Positions 49,855-64,000 of a stretch of DNA of 64,000 nt are shown in pieces. Location: positions 863,611 through 927,610 of the forward strand of contig JAHDVH010000001.1 in assembly GCA_023382385.1 (NCBI GenBank), written 5' to 3'. The notes under the pieces are model-generated. The model had not been told where the DNA came from and searched no databases. It saw only the letters and a list, made by a program, of their open reading frames with translations. This stretch comes from a bacterium. GTDB lineage: Bacteria > Electryoneota > RPQS01. A program made the translations under genes and the position numbers. The stretch's first letter is position 1. Each line of letters opens with the position of its first letter.

Positions 49855-50057
49855 TTCAGCACTCCTATTGCTAAATTAACGAGCGTAGTAACCACAAACG
49901 CGGCAACGCTTCCCCACACTGCCGCTTTCGTCTTGAGAGCAATAATATCTTCGCGCATGGCTTCCTGATTATCAGCGAGTCTCTTGATTTCGATGAGGAC
50001 GTGGTTCTTCCACTCGCCCCAACCGTTCGTAGAGTAGTCGTTCGGAGGCATCATCAT
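49851..50057 (-). CDS. XhlA/holin-like small membrane protein
   Basis: 68 residues: an amphipathic helix (WKNHVLIEIKRLADNQEAMREDI) followed by one C-terminal transmembrane helix (AVWGSVAAFVVTTLVNLAIGV). That layout is typical of haemolysin XhlA-type phage lysis proteins. AGGG upstream; overlaps both neighbours by 4 bases. Confidence 0.7.
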   Translation of the reverse strand: MMMPPNDYSTNGWGEWKNHVLIEIKRLADNQEAMREDIIALKTKAAVWGSVAAFVVTTLVNLAIGVLK

Positions 50058-53000
50058 GGTATCCCTACTTCAAAAAAGGTACTGGTAATTTCGCAAGAGT
50101 TCGGATCAAGTTCCTGTTCAATCAATCTAAACCGAGAGGTCGCATTCACCGCCGCCGGTAACAAATCGTGAGACAGTCGCGCGAGTTCGAGTGGTTCATA
50201 ACCAATCAAGCCCAACCCCGTTTTGAACTGAACGATCAGCGGCCTGCGCGTTAGGTGCTTTATGATCGCTTTCAGAAGGAATTCGGCAGTAGCCGCGTCA
50301 CGAATGTTCGTGGCCGTATACTCCCAGCGATTCACCTGCAGCGTGGCAAAATGCGCATCGCGGCAAAGCCCCCAGTAGGTCGAACCTTCGCTTGAGAGAT
50401 TCGTGAAACCCGAGTCGAACGACTCCGCATCGGGACTACTCACGAACAGCGACTCTTCCGGCTCGCCGGTCGCCATGTTGATCTTGAACTTCAACACGAA
50501 TTCATTGTACCAGTACTTGAGGTCGCCGCGCTTGACGGAGACTGACGTCTTGTCGCCGTTCAACCGAAACTTTGACAGGACCGGCGGGCTCTCTCCCGAT
50601 TCGCCTGCGTCGATGCGTGCGATAGTGGACTCGCCAAGATAATTCACGAAATACGCCAGATGCGCGTCGCGGCACAAGTCGCGAATCATGTCGAGACTGT
50701 TACTCTTATCCAAGTACTGACGCGCAAACTTCCATGAGCTGCGCTTGCCCGCCATAACATCAAATCCTGCAGGCGGGTGCGCCACTGTCACGTCATTCTC
50801 CTGAACTTCGGACTCGGAGTACGGAACCTTCGCGCTCGCGCCCGTGACCCAGCGCATAGACGTATGGTTGTTCGAAGAGGCGCCATTGCCATTGCCACTC
50901 GAATCTGTGACCGTGAATGCGCCTGAAGGTGTCGAGCCGTCGGTTTCACGTCGGCCTTCTTCGTCAAATCGCCACCATGCCTTGGTGTTACCCTGGTAAA
51001 AGGATTTCGGATAACCACTGCCCGCGTTATAGAGCTGCTTTGCCTCGCCTTCGCTAATTACCCTGTCCCAAATCCGCAGCTCGTCCAGAATCATATTCGT
51101 CCGCGTAGACGAGCCAGCGCGTAAGCCGATTCTCAGAACGCTGCCGCCGTCTGCCACGGCCTGAATGATACTAGAGCCGTTGTCGACAACGCCATTGATG
51201 TGGATATAGCGCGTTGCTCCGGACCCGCCCGCCGCAGTCGCAACAATGTGATACCACACTCCCGTCGAAAGCGTAGCAACGGACTCGAGGTAATTTGATG
51301 TCGATCCGTCACCGCGCCAGAACCTAACCTTCCCGCCCGTAGAAACGGACAATGCATAGGGCGCGATATTCCCGCTTCCGTTGATTTTCGCGACGATGAA
51401 GTTCTCACCGGCGGCAACGAAGGAGATGAACTTCACCCAGCATTCGATGGACACAATCCCGTCCAGCGCAAGACTTGAGTCATGCAGAACTTGGAAGAAC
51501 GGCGATGTGACCGAATCGTCCTGAGTTTGGATAGCTGCGCCATGCAGTCTCGGCTTCAACCCTAACTCGTCACAAAGTAAAGACTCAATGACGTAAGCGG
51601 GGTTCTCGTTCAAGTCACCCTCGTTGAACGAGTTTGAGTGCTTCGGCGAATCTATCCATTCGCCGAATATCCGGCCCTTGCCGGTCTGCATAAGAACATC
51701 AACATTCTCATCGTCAAGCTCGTCAACATGAACGTACACGGACTTGATTCTGAATTCGCACCCGGCATCATGTCCGCTGACATCAACGAATCTGAATTCA
51801 ATCTGGTACCCGGCATACGACCCCTCGCCTGAATCCAAGGCAGGAGACGCTTTCGTGGCAATGTCAACCGTAACAAAGGAGCCATACGCCGGAACGTCCG
51901 TCCATGAAATGTGCACGGTGCCGTTCTTGGAAATCTGATATTGAACCTTGTCGTTCACTCGGTTGACGGCATCAATGCGGAACTTCCAGTCAACGTTCTC
52001 TGCGGTTGTACCAGTCTTCCCGACTGTCGCAACTATTTCGTACGAGACCACCTCGCCATTCGCGTCTAGCACAGTGAAGTTTGTGTCATTTGTATCAACG
52101 GCATACTCAGGATTCGTCGCACCGGATGTTCCCACCACATCGACGACTGGTATCAAGTGAGTCGTTCTGAACAACGTGTTACTCGCCTTGAACACTTCGT
52201 CTGCGGTAACACCATCAATCACCGCTCCAAACGCAGGTTGTACGTGTCGTATATTCGTCAAGCAGAAGATTTCTCGTTCGTCAACCCAACGCGTCAACTT
52301 CCCGTCCGGAGTGGGATAGCTACGCTGTAATACGTCATGCCCGCATAGAATAGAGCGAGGACGGTTTGCGCCCGTTCCTACATCGCCATATTTGAGCGGC
52401 TGATTCAGGATACCGAGGAAGTAATCATGGTACACAATCGAACTAGCACCAGGGCTGAGATTACTGGCGACACCTGTCTTATTGATGCCCGCCCCTGAAT
52501 TCAACAGCCAATTGCCGTAGAGAATTGGCACAACTTTGTTTCTGTTGGATTCGGGAAGCTCAGGGAATTCATCAGGAGTCAGCATGCGCTTCGGGAGAAT
52601 CCGATGCTGCTTAATCCAACTATCCGAGCAGTAGAACGTCACATGGCTCTCGTCCCACGTCACGTCTTCGATTACCGATTTCGGAGCAACCGGCAAAGCA
52701 TTCATCCAAGACGGACCTGTTTGATCGGTAAAGATGAGCCGTATTTCTGCGCGCCTGCCGATGAAGTTCTCGGTTGCGAGCGTGTCGGAAATCAAGCTCT
52801 GATTTGGAATCTTGAACGTCCATCTCTGCGCCTGTGAAACGTTGCCGCCTTCACGAATGTCAACCGCGCGCCGAATCTTGCCGAATCCGTTCTTCGCAAT
52901 CTTCCCCTCGAAGTCAGGACCTGTCCAGCCTGAAACATTCGCCGGATTACACGGAAACGTCGCCCAGCGATACAGCGTTGTCGCACTCTCAACTTCAATC

Positions 53001-53062
53001 AGAAACTGAGGCGTCGAATTCGCGGCAATTCCGGCGGCGATGTTCGCGGACAGAGCTTTCAT
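50054..53062 (-). CDS. Phage tail protein (tail-tip/hub-like) with an inserted LamG-type lectin domain
   Basis: 1002 residues; the start at 53062 overlaps the upstream stop as ATGA. The N-terminal part (LIEVESATTLYRWATFP, DFEGKIAKNGFGKIRRAVDI) and the C-terminal part (LTRRPLIVQFKTGLGLIGYEPLELARLSHDLLP) look like a tail-tip/hub protein. Between about residues 514 and 680 lies a Laminin-G/concanavalin-like domain: LALDGIVSIECWVKF, GVWYHIVATA, RYIHINGVVDNGSS, ILDELRIWDRVIS. The insertion may bind host-surface glycan. Receptor-binding function is inferred. Confidence 0.8.
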   Translation of the reverse strand: MKALSANIAAGIAANSTPQFLIEVESATTLYRWATFPCNPANVSGWTGPDFEGKIAKNGFGKIRRAVDIREGGNVSQAQRWTFKIPNQSLISDTLATENFIGRRAEIRLIFTDQTGPSWMNALPVAPKSVIEDVTWDESHVTFYCSDSWIKQHRILPKRMLTPDEFPELPESNRNKVVPILYGNWLLNSGAGINKTGVASNLSPGASSIVYHDYFLGILNQPLKYGDVGTGANRPRSILCGHDVLQRSYPTPDGKLTRWVDEREIFCLTNIRHVQPAFGAVIDGVTADEVFKASNTLFRTTHLIPVVDVVGTSGATNPEYAVDTNDTNFTVLDANGEVVSYEIVATVGKTGTTAENVDWKFRIDAVNRVNDKVQYQISKNGTVHISWTDVPAYGSFVTVDIATKASPALDSGEGSYAGYQIEFRFVDVSGHDAGCEFRIKSVYVHVDELDDENVDVLMQTGKGRIFGEWIDSPKHSNSFNEGDLNENPAYVIESLLCDELGLKPRLHGAAIQTQDDSVTSPFFQVLHDSSLALDGIVSIECWVKFISFVAAGENFIVAKINGSGNIAPYALSVSTGGKVRFWRGDGSTSNYLESVATLSTGVWYHIVATAAGGSGATRYIHINGVVDNGSSIIQAVADGGSVLRIGLRAGSSTRTNMILDELRIWDRVISEGEAKQLYNAGSGYPKSFYQGNTKAWWRFDEEGRRETDGSTPSGAFTVTDSSGNGNGASSNNHTSMRWVTGASAKVPYSESEVQENDVTVAHPPAGFDVMAGKRSSWKFARQYLDKSNSLDMIRDLCRDAHLAYFVNYLGESTIARIDAGESGESPPVLSKFRLNGDKTSVSVKRGDLKYWYNEFVLKFKINMATGEPEESLFVSSPDAESFDSGFTNLSSEGSTYWGLCRDAHFATLQVNRWEYTATNIRDAATAEFLLKAIIKHLTRRPLIVQFKTGLGLIGYEPLELARLSHDLLPAAVNATSRFRLIEQELDPNSCEITSTFFEVGIP

Positions 53063-53472
53063 GACGGAGTACTCGTGCCCAGCGAGCGGTAGCGAACAGT
53101 GAACTTCTGCGAATAGATAGAGGGCGCGGCATACAGGCGATGCGGCGGCAAGTTGCCAAACAATTGGCATGTCACCGCGACGCCATTCCCCGCCCCTAAA
53201 TCTACGCCGGAATCGGGCGTCAACGTGAATTGATGCTTCGAGCCTTTCACGGTGTGAAGGAAGAAGTTTCTGAGTTCCGCGAGTTTCGACTGACTCATGC
53301 CGCGAATCTCAAACGTTGCAAGCCACACAACGACGTCGCGGTCATAAACTTCAATCGTGCCATCTTCATATTCCCCGACGCTCTGAAGGCGTTCGGGCTG
53401 AACGTCCAGCGGCTTGCGTGCGCCTGTTCGTCCGGTCAGGGTGACGGTGGTAGAAGAGTATTGCAGTGTCAT
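53059..53472 (-). CDS. Phage tail protein, between tape measure and tail tip
   Basis: 137 residues, beta-rich (VTLTGRTGARKPLDVQPERLQ, VYDRDVVVWLATFEIRG, HQFTLTPDSGVDLG, YSQKFTVRYRSLG). Its position directly after the tape measure gene, with ATGA overlaps on both sides, matches distal-tail-type proteins. No specific family is claimed. Confidence 0.65.
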   Translation of the reverse strand: MTLQYSSTTVTLTGRTGARKPLDVQPERLQSVGEYEDGTIEVYDRDVVVWLATFEIRGMSQSKLAELRNFFLHTVKGSKHQFTLTPDSGVDLGAGNGVAVTCQLFGNLPPHRLYAAPSIYSQKFTVRYRSLGTSTPS

Positions 53473-55667
53473 GATGCGTAGCTCACGCTGAATCTGCGAT
53501 CATCAAGCGCGCGTTCGATGGCGGCAGGGAGCATTTCCTCGACCAGATCGCGAATCTCAATGCGCTTCTGCAGCGGAATTCCCTGACCGTCAAGATTAAT
53601 GGCGATCGACACGTTATTCCCGCCGCGCAATGACCGTCCGTTATTCATCGCTTCCAGAACAGGGAGATTGCGTTGCGCAGCCTGACGATTCACGACGAAT
53701 TCACCGGACTCCAAGAGCGCCGGCACGCGGTCTCCGAACCCGTGCCCGGGCACGACGCCGCCTTCCTGAAACTGCATGGCTCCCATTGCCCGAGCGATAA
53801 TGGCCCCAATCCCCGCAATCGCGACGCCGATCGTTCCCACAGCGAATGCCGGCGCAAGCGGCCCTGCCCACGCGTAGAAGGCTACGAGTTTAGCGTAGGC
53901 TTCAGCCATGAATGAACCCGTGCGCTTTGCCGAATTCGCCTGCTCAGTCGCGGTATACGAGGTGCTCGCCGCCATACCGATCGCCGCAGTCTTCGTCGTA
54001 ATGGCCTGCTTCGTAATCTCATCCCAGATGTACTTGGTAGTGACTTGCGCGATCTTACTGGCAACGCTGGCCTTGAACTGGTTCCAAATCGCATCCCGCT
54101 TTTGCGCACCTGTCATTTCCGTGTTGAGCATTGCGTTCACGGCATAAGCCTGCGTATTGCGCAGAAAATCCGTGTCTTCCAGAAACTGCTGCTTCGCATC
54201 TTGGCGCCGCTTACCGAGTTGCAGGTAGTACCATTCGTCGAGCTTAATCCGGTTATCAACGCCCTCCTCATGTGCCTCGGTCATAATCTGATCGAGTTCC
54301 GTGAGGTTCGCGCCAAACTCGCCGAACGGGTCTTCGCCGGTGTCTTCAGGCGGAATCCACTTCAATTGCACGGGCACGGGATCGGGGGGCGACTCGATCA
54401 CAGGCGTGAGCGGCGTGGAGTTAAGTCGGGCAATCGATTTGGTGACCTTATCGACTTTCTCCTCAAATTCCGACACGCCCGGAATCAAATTATCCGTAGC
54501 CGCCTTTTCTAATTCTTCCGCTGTAACATGACCGAATTCCTTGACAACGCCGGTAGCATCTGAAGCGGCTACGGAAAACTGTTCGAACGCGTCCTCAACC
54601 TTCTCGACTTTCTGCGGCGTATCTTTGACTTCTGATTCAAAACCGGCGATTGCCGCCGTCAGAGCGATAACCGCTGTTGCCCCTCCAATCGCCCAGCCCC
54701 AACCGGGTATAGTCAGCATCAGCGATCGCGTAAAGACCAACGCGGCGTTCATCGAGTGCAGACCTCGCGTGATCGAGGGCAAGAGCAAGCCGATTGCGCT
54801 CGCTGTAGCAAGAAATCCGGTCAGTCCTGCCGCACCCAATCCGACAATTTGGACCAGCATCTGATGCTTCCCCGCCCATTCCCCAATGTCCTTCGCGAGT
54901 GGTCGAATCGACTGAGACAGCGCAGTAATCGTAGGGGCGAACGCCGCACCAAGTGCCTCAGACACGTCACCCACATCATTCTTCAAGCCCTGCAGAGATC
55001 CGCTCAATGTCTTTGCGTCCTCTTCGGCCAAACCCTTGAACTTCTGGCCGAGGATGCTCAGCATGTATTCGGCGCGTTCAGATTCGGTAGCGTTCTCGCC
55101 GAGCACCTCTTTAAGATTGCGGAACTCGGGAATAACGCGGCCCAACATGCCGGCTTCACCCTGCAATACAAGAGACATTGCGCGAGCCGCGCTGGCCGTG
55201 TCCATCTTCATGCCCGCCGCCAAGTCCATCGTCGCGGTCAGATTATCGAATGCGACATCGGCATCGCCGACCAACAGCGTTAAGTCCGCAAACACTCCGA
55301 GCGTCTGCTCATCGCCGAACCGAGTAACCGCCTGCAGCTCCGCCGCGGCGCCCGCGACTTTCCCCTTGTATTCGTCCCACGACCTGCCCGAAATCTGAGT
55401 AGCCGCCCGAGCGCGATTCTCAGCGTCCTCCTGCTCCATGAACGACTTCGTGACCAACCCGATGCTTCCCGCCACACCGGCGAACGCAATCGCAGACGCG
55501 TTCCGAATCTTCGCCAGATTCTCTTCCCAAGACTTGGAAGCGTTCCTCGCGGCATCGTCAGCGGCGGACTCCGCTCCCGCAAGCTGCTCTTTCAACTGAG
55601 AAAAGGCAGAGTCAACGTCTGCCTTCGCCTTCAGAAGTATGGCAAGTTCTCTTTCGCGATCAGCCAT
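53469..55667 (-). CDS. Tail tape measure protein
   Basis: 732 residues. Coiled N-terminus (KADVDSAFSQLKEQLAGAESAADDA), TP901-type core (MDTASAARAMSLVLQGEAG, LGENATESERAEYMLSILGQ), several hydrophobic helices between about 275 and 345, and the typical C-terminal FQEGGVVPGHGFGDRVPALLE. The length of this protein sets tail length; at roughly 1.5 angstrom per residue a tail of about 110 nm is expected if the whole chain counts. Confidence 0.9.
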   Translation of the reverse strand: MADRERELAILLKAKADVDSAFSQLKEQLAGAESAADDAARNASKSWEENLAKIRNASAIAFAGVAGSIGLVTKSFMEQEDAENRARAATQISGRSWDEYKGKVAGAAAELQAVTRFGDEQTLGVFADLTLLVGDADVAFDNLTATMDLAAGMKMDTASAARAMSLVLQGEAGMLGRVIPEFRNLKEVLGENATESERAEYMLSILGQKFKGLAEEDAKTLSGSLQGLKNDVGDVSEALGAAFAPTITALSQSIRPLAKDIGEWAGKHQMLVQIVGLGAAGLTGFLATASAIGLLLPSITRGLHSMNAALVFTRSLMLTIPGWGWAIGGATAVIALTAAIAGFESEVKDTPQKVEKVEDAFEQFSVAASDATGVVKEFGHVTAEELEKAATDNLIPGVSEFEEKVDKVTKSIARLNSTPLTPVIESPPDPVPVQLKWIPPEDTGEDPFGEFGANLTELDQIMTEAHEEGVDNRIKLDEWYYLQLGKRRQDAKQQFLEDTDFLRNTQAYAVNAMLNTEMTGAQKRDAIWNQFKASVASKIAQVTTKYIWDEITKQAITTKTAAIGMAASTSYTATEQANSAKRTGSFMAEAYAKLVAFYAWAGPLAPAFAVGTIGVAIAGIGAIIARAMGAMQFQEGGVVPGHGFGDRVPALLESGEFVVNRQAAQRNLPVLEAMNNGRSLRGGNNVSIAINLDGQGIPLQKRIEIRDLVEEMLPAAIERALDDRRFSVSYAS

Positions 55668-56525
55668 GGTCTTTGGATTTCTTCATCAGATGGGTGAGAT
55701 TCAAGTCATGAATCAGCAATACGCGGTCAAGCAGTTCCTGAAACTCGTCGTCACTCAAGCGAAAATTCCGAGCCGTAAGCACAAAGTCCAGCTTGTCAAT
55801 TCTCGGCAATCCATTCGAGTCAAATCCGGACAGCGACACCGTGTCAAAGTAGACGGACAAAGCGCGGCGTTCTGCCGGAGCTAACTTGAACGGCGGCGCG
55901 TCAGTGTAGAAGCAGTGCCCTTTTTCGTGCGAGAAACAGGGCGGTGTCCGTCCGTCTTCCGTGTAGCCTTCGTAACAGGCGCGGCAGTAGCCCCAGCCGA
56001 GTTCGAGGCTGAGTTCGACGTAACGCCTGAACGCCCCAAAGGGTCAGACGCTTCCTTCGCCTTCTGCGCCGCGAGGTCTATTAGGACGAGTTGGAAGAGT
56101 TCATCGCCGTAAGGCGTTCCTGCGAACGCCGAGACGCTTTCCTCGTCGATCGCAGCTTCCCCGTCCACTTCATTGAAACCGATACCGCTCCAGCTTCTGA
56201 TAGCCCAAAGCAGCGTTCTCACTTTAACAGCGTTCCAGTCCGTCTTATTCGCCACCAGCGCGGCGATCAGCAAGCCGTAGATCTTGTTCGCGAGTCCCGC
56301 TTCATCGTTCGCCCTGAGCGTTCCGTCCTCTTTCAGGACTTCTGAGACGACTTGCCGAACCGCCTCCTTGTCCACAGGCAACGGACCGCGATCTTCAATT
56401 CGGCATTCCCGAATTAGATCTTGATACCGTCGAGTCCCGATTCTGCAGTACGAAATCTCTGCGCCTTCGACAGGAACGTAAGAGAGAAGCTTGGATTCGT
56501 TAATTAGTGAAACTGCGTGTGTCAT
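55660..56525 (-). CDS. Tail assembly chaperone, -1 frameshift product (gpGT-like)
   Basis: Joining the frame that starts at 56525 with the -1 frame after the slippery heptamer at 56043-56037 gives 288 residues. The frame after the shift reads FGAFRRYVELSLELGWGYC, then CxxC (CRAC), then CFSHEKGHC, and continues to LTHLMKKSKDHG, ending at 55660, eight bases inside the tape measure gene. The sequence downstream of the heptamer in this frame looks like real protein, including a CxxC...CxxHxxxC zinc-finger-like pattern and a helical end, whereas the zero frame becomes low-complexity Ser/Thr/Arg. Gene order (major tail, chaperone, tape measure) is where lambda G/GT-type frameshifting is found. Confidence 0.8.
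55881..56525 (-). CDS. Tail assembly chaperone, zero-frame product (gpG-like)
   Basis: 214 residues from the ATG at 56525 (GGAAG 8 bases upstream); the frame is open 16 codons further, overlapping the previous small gene. The N-terminal 160 residues (VSLINESKLLSYVPVEGAEI, LANKIYGLLIAALVANK, LLWAIRSWSGIGFNEVDG) match a tail chaperone in position and type. After the slip site the frame reads a Ser/Thr/Ala-rich tail ending RRRSS, likely a by-product of terminating in this frame. Confidence 0.75.
   Translation of the reverse strand: MTHAVSLINESKLLSYVPVEGAEISYCRIGTRRYQDLIRECRIEDRGPLPVDKEAVRQVVSEVLKEDGTLRANDEAGLANKIYGLLIAALVANKTDWNAVKVRTLLWAIRSWSGIGFNEVDGEAAIDEESVSAFAGTPYGDELFQLVLIDLAAQKAKEASDPLGRSGVTSNSASNSAGATAAPVTKATRKTDGHRPVSRTKKGTASTLTRRRSS
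56037..56043 (-). promoter_or_regulatory. Programmed -1 ribosomal frameshift site (slippery heptamer C CCT TTG)
   Basis: On the minus strand the zero frame reads GAC CCT TTG GGG. The heptamer CCCTTTG fits X XXY YYZ, so both tRNAs can re-pair after slipping to CCC and TTT. Immediately downstream is GGGG; a short stem (CAGCC/GGCTG) lies roughly 25 bases later. A stop (TGA) in the -1 frame lies directly before CCC, so the -1 frame could not have been entered earlier. Confidence 0.78.
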
Positions 56526-56547: not shown

Positions 56548-56724
56548 TTACTTGCCTGACTTTGCCCATTCAATAAATGCGGCCTTGATCAGCGATACTT
56601 TTTCGGTGTCTGAAGTTGCGCCGTGAATCACGGCTTCAATGCTCGCGAGTCTTTGCGACAGCAAAGCCCGCTCTTCAGCGAGCTTGCTGTTCGACTCCGT
56701 AAGTTCCTTCTGTGTGACTGACAT
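56548..56724 (-). CDS. Small coiled-coil phage protein (58 residues)
   Basis: ATG at 56724 to TAA at 56548. The peptide is a single amphipathic helix type (KELTESNSKLAEERALLSQR, then LIKAAFIEWAKSGK). It fills the gap between major tail protein and tail chaperone exactly, 2 bases after one stop and 22 before the next start. The ribosome site is weak. Function unknown. Confidence 0.6.
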   Translation of the reverse strand: MSVTQKELTESNSKLAEERALLSQRLASIEAVIHGATSDTEKVSLIKAAFIEWAKSGK

Positions 56725-56726
56725 GA

Positions 56727-58238
56727 TTACAAATTCTCGTGGTTTTGTGCCATGAACATGTTGAACGGGAATTGGTTCCGTGTCTGGATGATGATCGGCC
56801 CGTTTTCAATGCCGTCTCCAACCGTCGGAGTGGGCATGCCGGCAGGGTTGCCCGTTACGTTGTCGCAATTCAAACACACGAAACTGTGCTTCTCCGGAAC
56901 GACGCCGACGCCCGGGATCGACGTGTCCGGCGTTTCCAAGCGCAGTCTACGAAGCCAGATTTTCAGTTCGTTGTTGCGAACCGTTCCTGTCGTAATCGGT
57001 GATCCGGTGAACGTCAGCGAGGCCATGAGATTCGATTCGTTCAGGAACTGCGTTACGCGCGTGTTTTCCTTATGGCGGGACAGCGTGAAAGAACCGTACA
57101 CTTTGCGCTTTTCGCTGCGGGTAGGTTCGTCGCGATATAGACCGCTGCTCGTGGTCTGTGACGCGTCGTCAAGCGGATTTTCAATCGTGATCTCGATCTC
57201 GGAGATACCGACATTGTGCGAAGCGGACAATGCGGTGCCCGTGCTGAACGCCGCCAATCTGAACACCGCGTCCGGAAACTGAACGCGCTCATAAACCATG
57301 AAAGATGAGCCGCTTGCCGGCACGGCCTGCGTTCCGTTCACATAGCGCCAGGTATCGCGTGTCTGGCTGTTCGAATTGGTCAAGTCATGAAACGCCGGAA
57401 CGCATTCCGCAGACACAAGCAGCCCGTTCTTTGCGTCCAGCTTGAAAGTCAGCTTCCTGATGAATACGAACTGCCATTCTTCGTACTTCCATCCGTTCCA
57501 AGTAACCAGCGTGCCATGGCGCGTGAGAAATGCATTCGTCCCGATCGCCGTTCCCCATACACCCGCCATGATGTTCTGGAAGTTCTCGCCGTGCATGTGC
57601 TTCGAACACTCGTAGGTATGCAGAAACTCACGGGCGACGGCGAAGGCTTTTCCAGCATTCGGGTCAGAGCCGCCGCTCGCGTTCCACGCCGGAGCGACCG
57701 TGATCTGCGTCGTGCTGGTGCGCCCGACAATCTTGCGCACCTGATCGAAGACGTTGGGAGTCGAAGCCAATTCCTGAATCCGCACCCAGTCACCGATAAT
57801 CGCGTCGCTGGTGAACACAGCGGCTGACGCGATCAGCGTGGTGGCGGTGGTACCAGCTGCAGTGGTGCCGGTCAGTGTTGTGCCAAGTCCGCTGATTCCG
57901 AAATCCGGAGACTCCAAAGCTGAACCTCGCACCTTCTCAAAACCCAACGCCGCCGCAATCAACTGGTCAAGGCCCAGAAACCCGGCCTTGATGTCCAATG
58001 CACCGCCGGGCATGACGGCGATCTTGTCATGCTGAGAAGGTCCGGAGGTTCCGTCCAAGACGTCCGCGTCGTCTTCGAACTCATGGTTGTTCTTCAGAGA
58101 GTGCTTGAGAAGCGCAATCTTGTCGTAAGAATTCAGCTTGGGCTGAGAATCGGGCCATGAAATAGCGTAAGGTTCGCTCTTACGGCTATTGAGCCTGAAC
58201 GCCGCAAGCGTGGCCGTTCCTTGTGCCGGTGCAAGCAT
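56727..58238 (-). CDS. Phage major tail tube protein (likely)
   Basis: 503 residues, ATG with AAGGAGAT upstream. Beta-rich with long loops: FRLNSRKSEPYAISWPDSQP, TSGPSQHDKIAVMPGGALDI, ISEIEITIENPLDD, GSFTLSRHKENTRVTQFLNE. Position before the chaperone and tape measure genes is that of the tail tube subunit. The C-terminal CLNC plus the long middle may be an extra surface domain. It is longer than most tube proteins (150-350). Confidence 0.7.
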   Translation of the reverse strand: MLAPAQGTATLAAFRLNSRKSEPYAISWPDSQPKLNSYDKIALLKHSLKNNHEFEDDADVLDGTSGPSQHDKIAVMPGGALDIKAGFLGLDQLIAAALGFEKVRGSALESPDFGISGLGTTLTGTTAAGTTATTLIASAAVFTSDAIIGDWVRIQELASTPNVFDQVRKIVGRTSTTQITVAPAWNASGGSDPNAGKAFAVAREFLHTYECSKHMHGENFQNIMAGVWGTAIGTNAFLTRHGTLVTWNGWKYEEWQFVFIRKLTFKLDAKNGLLVSAECVPAFHDLTNSNSQTRDTWRYVNGTQAVPASGSSFMVYERVQFPDAVFRLAAFSTGTALSASHNVGISEIEITIENPLDDASQTTSSGLYRDEPTRSEKRKVYGSFTLSRHKENTRVTQFLNESNLMASLTFTGSPITTGTVRNNELKIWLRRLRLETPDTSIPGVGVVPEKHSFVCLNCDNVTGNPAGMPTPTVGDGIENGPIIIQTRNQFPFNMFMAQNHENL

Positions 58239-61259: not shown

Positions 61260-63653
61260 TTAGCTCGTGTATCCGGCAATCGGGCGATAGTCGACGCACT
61301 TCACGCCAACGTCCCAGCGCACGCGGTAAGAAACCTTGTCCGCCGTAAAGTTCGAGCCGCTCCCTGCGACTTCCTGCATCAGTTCCGGTTCAGACTCGCC
61401 CTTCAGCGTCGCCACGGCGATGCCTTCAACTTTGCGCGGGTCGGCAATCGCCCACCAGTGTGAGGAGTTGCTGATGCGCGGACACAGAATGTAATCCATG
61501 CCGTACTGAGCATGGACGTTCGGCGCACCGCCATTCGGTAACAGGTCACCGGCATTGTAACCACCCGCCGTGAGAGCAATCTGCACCGTGGACTGCGCCT
61601 TGCACAACGCGAGCGCCATGTCTTCCTTGTCCGGATGGACGACCAGCCACTTCGGCCAGTTCACTTCCATCAGATACTCGGGATTCGTGGCATCGCTTCC
61701 GTACGCCTTCTGATTGTACATCTTGTTGCGTACGTCCTTCATGGTCGTCGGCGAGAGGGCGCCAGACGTCAAGTTGCCATGGCTCGCCGAATGCAGCAGC
61801 GCAACGGAGTCGTAAATCACGCTGTTGCCAATCAGCATATCAAAGACCGCACGATACGGTCGCAGTTTCAGAGCACGCGCCGCCCGAATCGGCAGTAAGC
61901 GAATTGCTTTCATGTCGTCGTTAACGATCATCTTGCGAGTAATCGAGAAGATGCCGCCGCGCGTTTCGAGGTTCAATGCAACCGACTCGTCCGTCAGTCC
62001 GGGCATCGGCAGGAACGTTCCGCCATCCGGATCCACGATCGGCAATTCGCCCCAGTAACCGAGTCGAGTGAAGTTGTGATCGCGGAAGTCGTTGACTTGC
62101 TCCTTGACCGTGATCTTCTCATAATCGCGGTAATCCGGAAGCAGATACTCACGCATCAGCGCGCGGTGCATGGCGTCGCCAAACACCTGATCGAAGCTCG
62201 CGGTCGTAAACGACTCTTTGAAGTTCCGGCGAACGATCGAGTTGTATTGATTCCCCGCGAGCAGTCCGAGGAACAAGTCAGCGTTATCTACACGGTCGCG
62301 GTCAATGCGCCAGCCCTTGTAGGCCGCTTCCTTGATCGAAGAGAATCTGCGCACGGTGCGCTTCTTGTCGTCCTTCAGGTCTTCACCGGCAAAGAAGCCG
62401 TCCAGCGCAAGCATGGCATCGGAGATACCGACGTCATTCAGCCCGCGAATCGTACCGCCGGCAAAGCCGTAGCCCAGGGCTTCGAGCGCCTTCTGCTCGG
62501 CGCTGATCGCTTCCTTGACCTTCATGAGTTCAAGGCCGCGTCCTTTGACCGATTCCTTGAGCTTTTCCTTCACAGGCGCAGGCAGGTTCGAGCCGTCGAT
62601 TTCGGCAACCGCCTTCTCATCGGCAAGTTCGCGCTTCATAGCGTCAACCTGCTCCTTCAGCGCATTAACGTCTTCCGGCTTGACGGCTGAACCGCCGTTC
62701 AAGTCCGGATTGTTCTGCGGCTGCTGGTCGTTGTTCTTCTGCGGTTCGACGTTTGGCTTCGGATCCGTGTTCTTCTGCGCGGCCTGAGCGGTTTCGTACT
62801 CAAGAAGCTTCTTGAGCGCCGCGGTTGCAGCTTCAACATTTCCTGATTCGAGCGCGGTCAACGCTTCCTTTGCGAACGTCTTCCACTGCGCGTCAGTCGT
62901 CTCTTCGCTTTGCTCTTGCAGCACTTCGGCGGCGACCGTCGTCGCAGCGTCGCCTTCGGCTTCGAGAAAGCGCGTGATTCGAGCTTCGACCTTCTCAGCG
63001 TTCTTGGACGCCGCAGCGCGCGCCTCAAGCACTCTGAACAGTAGTCGCTTGGTGTGTGCTTTCATGTTTGTCTTTCCCTTATTTTGAATTGCGGCAGCAA
63101 TGCGAAGTATCTTTCCGCCAGCAGCTGCGCTGTCTACGATGTCGCAAGAATGAACAGACTCGATATAGCCGTTCGCAACGTCAATCCCGTCCACACGGGC
63201 GAGTTCATACGCCCCGTCGCCGTCAATCGATAACTCGGCAAAGTCCTTGAATCCGCTGTCCCACGCGTTCTTGATGCGGTTTGCAAGGTCAGTATCGACC
63301 AGATGTAAATCGCAAATGACGCCTTCATTCCCTTCGGCGTCCTTTCCCCAACGCGGGTTCTTGTAGACGCCGACTTTGTTCTTGACAAAGCCAGTCGCGC
63401 GCTTCGCGTCGTCCGAAAAATCGGCAACGTGCCCCTTCGACCCGTCAGGATTCTCGAACACGTATGCCGGAAGATTCTCGAACTGCGGCATAAGCGTCTG
63501 AAGCATTTCCTTGCCGTAATAAAACGGCACACCTTCCGGAGACCGGTTCTTCGACAGGCCGACCTTGATCGCCATGACTTCGAGGACCCTGCCGGTCTTG
63601 TCTGCGGCGAGGATTCGGCTTTCGCGTGAACGAGTGAGTTTGAGCCTGCTCAT
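61260..63653 (-). CDS. Prohead protease-scaffold-major capsid fusion protein
   Basis: 797 residues from the ATG at 63653; 61 upstream open codons cross the terminator at 63702-63741 and are rejected. Residues 1 to about 200 look like a prohead protease (conserved His in KGHVADFSDD, FAELSIDGDGAYEL with a candidate Ser, then SVHSCDIVDSAAAGG). Residues about 205-400 are helical and charged, including a coiled coil (VNALKEQVDAMKRELADEKA) and a Gln/Asn/Pro-rich linker: a scaffold. Residues about 445-797 are a major capsid protein (NQYNSIVRRNFKESFTTASF, GRLGYW-type strands as FTRLGYWGELPIVDPDGGTF, ETRGGIFSITRKMIVNDDMK). Normally these are two or three separate genes. No Shine-Dalgarno is evident. 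Confidence 0.85.
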   Translation of the reverse strand: MSRLKLTRSRESRILAADKTGRVLEVMAIKVGLSKNRSPEGVPFYYGKEMLQTLMPQFENLPAYVFENPDGSKGHVADFSDDAKRATGFVKNKVGVYKNPRWGKDAEGNEGVICDLHLVDTDLANRIKNAWDSGFKDFAELSIDGDGAYELARVDGIDVANGYIESVHSCDIVDSAAAGGKILRIAAAIQNKGKTNMKAHTKRLLFRVLEARAAASKNAEKVEARITRFLEAEGDAATTVAAEVLQEQSEETTDAQWKTFAKEALTALESGNVEAATAALKKLLEYETAQAAQKNTDPKPNVEPQKNNDQQPQNNPDLNGGSAVKPEDVNALKEQVDAMKRELADEKAVAEIDGSNLPAPVKEKLKESVKGRGLELMKVKEAISAEQKALEALGYGFAGGTIRGLNDVGISDAMLALDGFFAGEDLKDDKKRTVRRFSSIKEAAYKGWRIDRDRVDNADLFLGLLAGNQYNSIVRRNFKESFTTASFDQVFGDAMHRALMREYLLPDYRDYEKITVKEQVNDFRDHNFTRLGYWGELPIVDPDGGTFLPMPGLTDESVALNLETRGGIFSITRKMIVNDDMKAIRLLPIRAARALKLRPYRAVFDMLIGNSVIYDSVALLHSASHGNLTSGALSPTTMKDVRNKMYNQKAYGSDATNPEYLMEVNWPKWLVVHPDKEDMALALCKAQSTVQIALTAGGYNAGDLLPNGGAPNVHAQYGMDYILCPRISNSSHWWAIADPRKVEGIAVATLKGESEPELMQEVAGSGSNFTADKVSYRVRWDVGVKCVDYRPIAGYTS

Positions 63654-63701
63654 GCGATTAAGTTCAGAAATTGCCTGAGCGATTACAACGGCGCAAAACA
63701 G

Positions 63702-63741
63702 AAAACCCTGCAACCTTTCCGGAAATGTTGCAGGGTTTTTT
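63702..63741. terminator. Terminator between MuF-like gene and capsid fusion gene
   Basis: AAAACCCTGCAAC and GTTGCAGGGTTTT (13 pairs, 12-base loop), T-runs on both strands. It separates the upstream head gene from the capsid gene, implying that the capsid operon has its own promoter or relies on anti-termination. Confidence 0.8.
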
Positions 63742-63775
63742 ACATTCAGGCTTGACCTATGCCGCTTTGCCACGA

Positions 63776-64000
63776 TTACAGGTTCATAATCGTGTCCCGC
63801 ACAAGGTCTTCCATGGAATCGACGACCGTTACCCATTGACAGCCGCAGTTGATTGTCTCTTCCGGCGGTCCAGCAGGATCGCGGGGATACATTAAACCAT
63901 TGGAAAACGGTTCATTAAACGGTACAATCTCGCCGTCCATCTCCTGATGCCACCACCTTCTACCGGGTCTATCGCCTCCGCTCACCCACTTCTTCTTCAC
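63776..64000 (-). CDS. MuF/SPP1 gp7-like phage head morphogenesis protein, C-terminal part
   Basis: 74 residues visible; the 5' end lies outside the window, so no true start is seen. The segment KKWVSGGDRPGRRWWHQEMD, then LMYPRDPAGPPEETINCGC and QWVTVVD matches the C-terminus of MuF-C proteins (P..E..NC.C conserved motif), minor head proteins that act with portal and capsid. Confidence 0.75.
   Translation of the reverse strand: MKKKWVSGGDRPGRRWWHQEMDGEIVPFNEPFSNGLMYPRDPAGPPEETINCGCQWVTVVDSMEDLVRDTIMNL

Follow-up and report, generated by a model that had tools for sequence, protein, structure and literature searches.

A probable frameshifted tail assembly chaperone of the lambda G/GT type, with a conserved four-cysteine segment, in an apparent prophage

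Introduction

Programmed -1 frameshifting in phage tail chaperone genes has long been known (Xu et al., 2004, cited in PMC5009743). In phage lambda, the partner of G is the tape measure protein and that of T is the major tail protein, and the T domain is carried by the rarer, frameshifted product (PMC5009743). The T half of GT is poorly understood, and the recruitment of tail-tube subunits is known mainly from lambda. Two other described systems are close to the locus studied here: the DUF1799 (PF08809) chaperone of T1-type phages (Drexlerviridae), which has an A AAA AAC site and whose second-frame product is encoded immediately ahead of the tape measure gene, and Vibrio phage MAR10, in which MAR10_040 is a second-frame chaperone half that follows the canonical heptamer G GGA AAC.

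Here we describe a locus that, with a probability of about 0.9, encodes a frameshifted tail assembly chaperone pair of the lambda G/GT type. Like lambda gpG/gpGT, it lies between the tail tube and tape measure genes, combines a short chaperone with a -1 extension and carries, toward the end of its first frame, a canonical X XXY YYZ heptamer. Unlike lambda gpG/gpGT, it is without a sequence database match, uses C CCT TTR as its candidate site and has a four-cysteine segment in the extension.

Results and Discussion

Gene Order at the Locus

The window, by which we mean the whole stretch of 64,000 nucleotides that was analyzed, comes from a bacterial genome of 2.9 Mb and carries a tail and head gene module of a phage on the minus strand of its right part. 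The locus appears to belong to a prophage in a little-studied bacterium. The features relevant here are as follows (window coordinates, all on the minus strand):

56727..58238, minus: tail tube (major tail) protein; weak Phage_tube_2 match, E 0.0047, below the cut-off; syntenic homologues elsewhere
55881..56525, minus: zero-frame tail assembly chaperone (G-like), 214 aa, ATG at 56525; from ORF reading
56037..56043, minus: candidate slippery heptamer C CCT TTG, zero frame GAC CCT TTG, -1 re-pairing CCC TTT; kept as C CCT TTG/A in four loci
55660..56043, minus: -1 frame extension (T-like), 127 aa from CCC TTT plus stop; conserved in L002, L005 and L008 (see below); chaperone-like predicted fold
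55881..56036, minus: zero-frame tail after the heptamer, overlapping the -1 frame; variable, from its lengths across four loci
55912..55986, minus: four-cysteine segment CxxC-x12-C-x7-C, probable metal finger; cysteines invariant in four homologues
55660..55896, minus: C-terminal helical part of the extension, DUF1799-like or tape-measure-chaperone-like by hhalign and Foldseek
53469..55667, minus: tape measure protein; phrog_1272, E 1.2e-11, plus other tape-measure families

The order tail tube, chaperone, tape measure was found in all four loci of the homologue set, with the tape measure recognized through PHROG and the tail tube through the weak Pfam match plus synteny. The extension closes at 55660, just within the tape measure gene, whose start it overlaps. 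The G-like protein gave a weak PHROG match to phrog_313 (Tail assembly chaperone) in two of the four members of its set (best E 0.038). An earlier note on this DNA had remarked that a location between the major tail protein and the tape measure fits the logic of lambda G/GT, and gene order, Foldseek and DUF1799 profile similarity all support a lambda G/GT reading.

Several neighboring genes were recorded in passing. A 58-aa ORF (MSVTQKELTES..., window 56548-56724, minus) separates the chaperone from the tail tube gene. An 858-aa protein (61260-63836, minus) resembles Phage_capsid_4 and head-protease families in its C-terminal part and is probably a fusion of protease and major capsid protein. 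A 1038-aa protein (50054-53170, minus), encoded downstream of the tape measure gene, has a Laminin_G_3/concanavalin-like domain (E 3.7e-20) and possibly serves surface binding. On contig C494 of genome G005, the main tail tube gene is immediately preceded by another tail-tube-like ORF (L030 149-1420).

The Frame Junction in the Window

The heptamer C CCT TTG sits in canonical X XXY YYZ register within the 214-aa ORF, near the end of the first frame, with GAC CCT TTG read in frame (56043..56037) and the zero-frame stop at 55881, exactly as first described. In the -1 frame a TGA stands immediately before CCC TTT, after which the frame is open to 55660; the length of 127 residues given for it in the earlier note is exact from CCC TTT, and its protein-like sequence is kept in homologues. 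This frame has no ATG, GTG or TTG before the TTG at 55860, 61 codons past CCC TTT. Since that TTG is the first such codon of the -1 frame, the short ORF called at 55860 is an artefact, and the view that this downstream start had been hidden inside the -1 frame holds.

The 4495 codons of ten neighboring genes contain 10 in-register XXXYYYZ heptamers. By the codon usage of the same ten genes, Asp-Pro-Leu is expected to be written as GAC CCT TTR about 3% of the time; it is so written in all four loci. Folding energies downstream of the heptamer fell inside the range of shuffled sequences (z -1.25 to +1.93), and because they match the shuffles a downstream RNA stimulator is not claimed. Purine stretches resembling a Shine-Dalgarno sequence lie 10-14 nt upstream of the heptamer in all four loci; 9-44% of positions in the same gene are equally strong, so an upstream stimulator is not claimed either. 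Stimulators are not needed at every frameshift site of this kind.

Conservation in Homologous Loci

The homologue set comprises the window and three further loci, L002, L005 and L008, only four close members falling into two clades. L002 is from a genome of the same genus (G001), where the chaperone is 50% identical and GAC CCT TTG stands at the matching position. In L005, from a genome of the same family (G005, MAG contig JAHIZR010000228.1), and in L008, a viral contig (IMGVR_UViG_2713896713_000001), the matching position reads GAC CCT TTA. The heptamer is thus C CCT TTG in two loci and C CCT TTA in two, always at the frame junction. Upstream of it, synonymous sites are heavily diverged, with a dS of 1.84 between the window and L002 and 1.07 between L005 and L008, and the first-frame protein is 28-29% identical between the two clades; given this dS and this identity, the nonanucleotide GAC CCT TTR has been kept against a heavily diverged background. 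The earlier note had looked to homologues lacking the heptamer, or to conservation of the zero-frame tail, as evidence against frameshifting. The heptamer is present in all four homologous loci found, and the tail is unlike in length and sequence between the clades, with the -1 frame kept.

Indeed, past the heptamer the zero-frame tail runs for 51 residues in the window, 55 in L002 and 9 each in L005 and L008; with such lengths it is not a conserved domain, and it is probably dispensable. By comparison of L005 with L008, the -1 frame is under purifying selection: its dN/dS is 0.11, and its third positions take 58 of the 86 substitutions that lie beyond the short overlap, the ratios of the other frames being above 2. 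The frame signal between the window and L002 in the overlap is weaker (ratios of 0.59 for the -1 frame, 0.81 for the zero frame and 1.05 for the third), as expected from saturation and overlap. Judged by these sequence comparisons, the -1 frame is the real coding frame after the heptamer.

Beyond the four loci, neither the extension nor the tail tube had a tblastn match among 50,697 phage records. The extension profile also had weak matches in three genomes (E 0.003-0.009); those in G268 (L014) and G112 (L016) were rejected as chance by their gene context, and that in G285 (L015) is treated as chance.

Taken by itself, the window shows two frames that jointly resemble one protein, as would be seen if a true single ORF had decayed or been broken by an assembly or sequencing error. 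Against this, the break recurs at the same nonanucleotide in four sequences that were assembled separately, the extensions of the others sharing 41-47% identity with that of the window, and the -1 frame is under purifying selection; because the four loci are concordant we exclude sequencing or assembly error, and the chance that the frame break arose in any of these ways is negligible. It is very improbable that the second frame is an independent gene reached by re-initiation. Some phages do carry two separate chaperone ORFs, and the TTG at 55860 could begin a 66-aa product, but the conserved -1 part begins at CCC TTT, 61 codons before that TTG and with the invariant cysteines included, in a stretch free of ATG, GTG and TTG, and re-initiation would leave the conservation of C CCT TTR unexplained. 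The place of slippage might also be different: at window positions 56034-56043 (minus) the sequence CCCTTTGGGG contains two overlapping in-register heptamers, of which the second is T TTG GGG. Slippage mainly at this second heptamer is improbable, since T TTG GGG is missing from L002, L005 and L008. Slippage at C CCT TTR is the reading that we prefer.

Fold and Family of the Extension

The extension had no significant match among Pfam and PHROG families. An AlphaFold2 model of it built from the four sequences (mean pLDDT 76.6, pTM 0.72) was searched with Foldseek against predicted viral structures, and five of the seven best matches were tape-measure or tail chaperones. Four of these, all tape-measure chaperones, came from Enterobacter phage F20, Klebsiella phage Solomon, Caulobacter phage CcrColossus and Serratia phage Scapp; the fifth was MAR10_040 of Vibrio phage MAR10. 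Probabilities for these named chaperones were 0.57-0.99, with modest E-values (0.08-0.94) and TM-scores of about 0.5. Against the PDB, VIA-align of the extension was uninformative (best Z 4.1), and Foldseek of the G-like part found nothing significant.

When inspected as DNA, both the F20 and the MAR10 proteins proved to be second-frame chaperone halves. The F20 protein is the second ORF, ahead of the tape measure gene, and meets the first at an A AAA AAC heptamer; its predicted fold is similar across the whole extension (Foldseek probability 0.99), and its group is DUF1799. An hhalign comparison of the extension with six DUF1799 members gave an E-value of 0.002, and in a local rerun none of 200 column shuffles scored as high. 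The alignment pairs PPFKLAPAERRALSVYFDTVS...LSGFDSNGLPRID of the extension with the DUF1799 region up to and through TQWR...GLDY. No DUF1799 Pfam match above the gathering score was found in the four members or in the genome, so that the C-terminal part of the extension may be called related to DUF1799 by profile similarity and outside the family by the Pfam threshold. The six DUF1799 members have the TQWR motif and lack the four-cysteine segment, whereas the extension in the window lacks TQWR. MAR10_040, from an unrelated phage, was the third-best Foldseek match (20% identity) and is without CxxC pairs. These sequence and fold similarities point, with moderate strength, to a relationship of the extension with known second-frame chaperones.

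A Four-Cysteine Segment at the Start of the Extension

The four extensions have in common P1-F2, VEL, W17, Y19, C20, C23, PPC36, C44, PP, SG.D..LP..DKL and a helical C-terminus. Cysteines C20, C23, C36 and C44, invariant in the four homologues, follow the pattern CxxC-x12-C-x7/13-C and provide four conserved, suitably spaced potential ligands, as in a C4 site; L002 has a 6-residue insertion between the third and fourth. The earlier note had read a cysteine and histidine motif, CxxC...CxxHxxxC. Its cysteines stand, but the second half actually reads C36-FS-H39-EKG-H43-C44, or CxxHxxxHC, in the window, and H39 and H43 are replaced in all three homologues. Histidine as a metal ligand is rejected because neither is conserved. 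The segment is probably a C4 metal finger, and from spacing and conservation a structural zinc site is the simplest and most likely reading.

Frameshifting could be real with the cysteines serving another structural role or another ligand, which we consider unlikely yet worth keeping in view. AlphaFold2 confidence is low across the segment (pLDDT below 50 for most of it), and the extension matched no zinc-finger family in Pfam or PHROGs and gave no fold match in support of a finger. On the other side, the protein is expected to reside in the reducing cytoplasm, its four cysteines are invariant and show CxxC spacing, the loop separating the last two varies in length, and CxxC...CxxC recurs in a distant -1 extension.

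This distant case came from a search with the tail tube profile, which found a remote tail tube relative in G085, a genome outside the phylum of the host. Next after the tail tube there (L033, reverse complement position 2092), the short chaperone ends in A AAA AAC, and the -1 frame reads CxxC...CxxC and then a helical-looking part. In hhalign with the window-type extension (E 0.002), the CxxC, the third cysteine and the C-terminal part align. The G085 chaperone differs in having A AAA AAC at the very end of the zero frame and another cysteine spacing. As a single distant case, it suggests that T-like domains bearing cysteines extend beyond one small clade.

Proposed Mechanism and Significance

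The conserved junction and -1 frame, the four cysteines, the gene order and the fold resemblance are seen in the sequences; frameshifting at this site and its rate we infer, and the partner roles of the short and frameshifted products are taken from lambda by analogy. Most ribosomes would stay in the zero frame, and the short chaperone of 214 aa that they make would coat the tape measure protein. A minority would slip by -1 at C CCT TTG, tRNA-Pro moving from CCT to CCC and tRNA-Leu from TTG to TTT, and produce a fusion with a predicted length of 288 aa. The T-like C-terminal domain of this fusion would recruit the tail-tube protein to the chaperone-coated tape measure. It would open with the four-cysteine segment, forming a small zinc-binding fold that stabilizes the domain, and continue into the DUF1799-like helical part.

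What appears new is the conserved four-cysteine module at the start of a T-like extension, absent from the known versions compared. In the literature searched, which excluded most subscription journals, we found no tail chaperone papers on zinc, CxxC or a zinc-finger-like GT extension, and tail-chaperone frameshifting was unreported for a C CCT TTR site or for this host lineage; the locus would extend it to both. A T-like version with its own conserved cysteine module would offer a self-contained part for purification and structural study. More tentatively, and rather against the odds as we see them, there may be a distinct class of chaperones whose T-like domain gains a zinc-finger module through the frameshift, in unrelated uncultured phages and with both C CCT TTR and A AAA AAC sites. 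If so, the frameshift would determine how much of a metal-dependent adaptor is available to link tape measure and tail tube, and metal or redox conditions could affect tail assembly.

The locus also bears on annotation, as ORF callers miss or split such a gene and, here, report a spurious start at 55860. As a separate observation, MAR10_040 (L025 24877-25275), which matches the tail chaperonin family phrog_3817 (E 1.9e-28), is annotated as a plain ORF and lies directly after G GGA AAC at the end of MAR10_039; from its sequence context it is probably an unannotated frameshift product.
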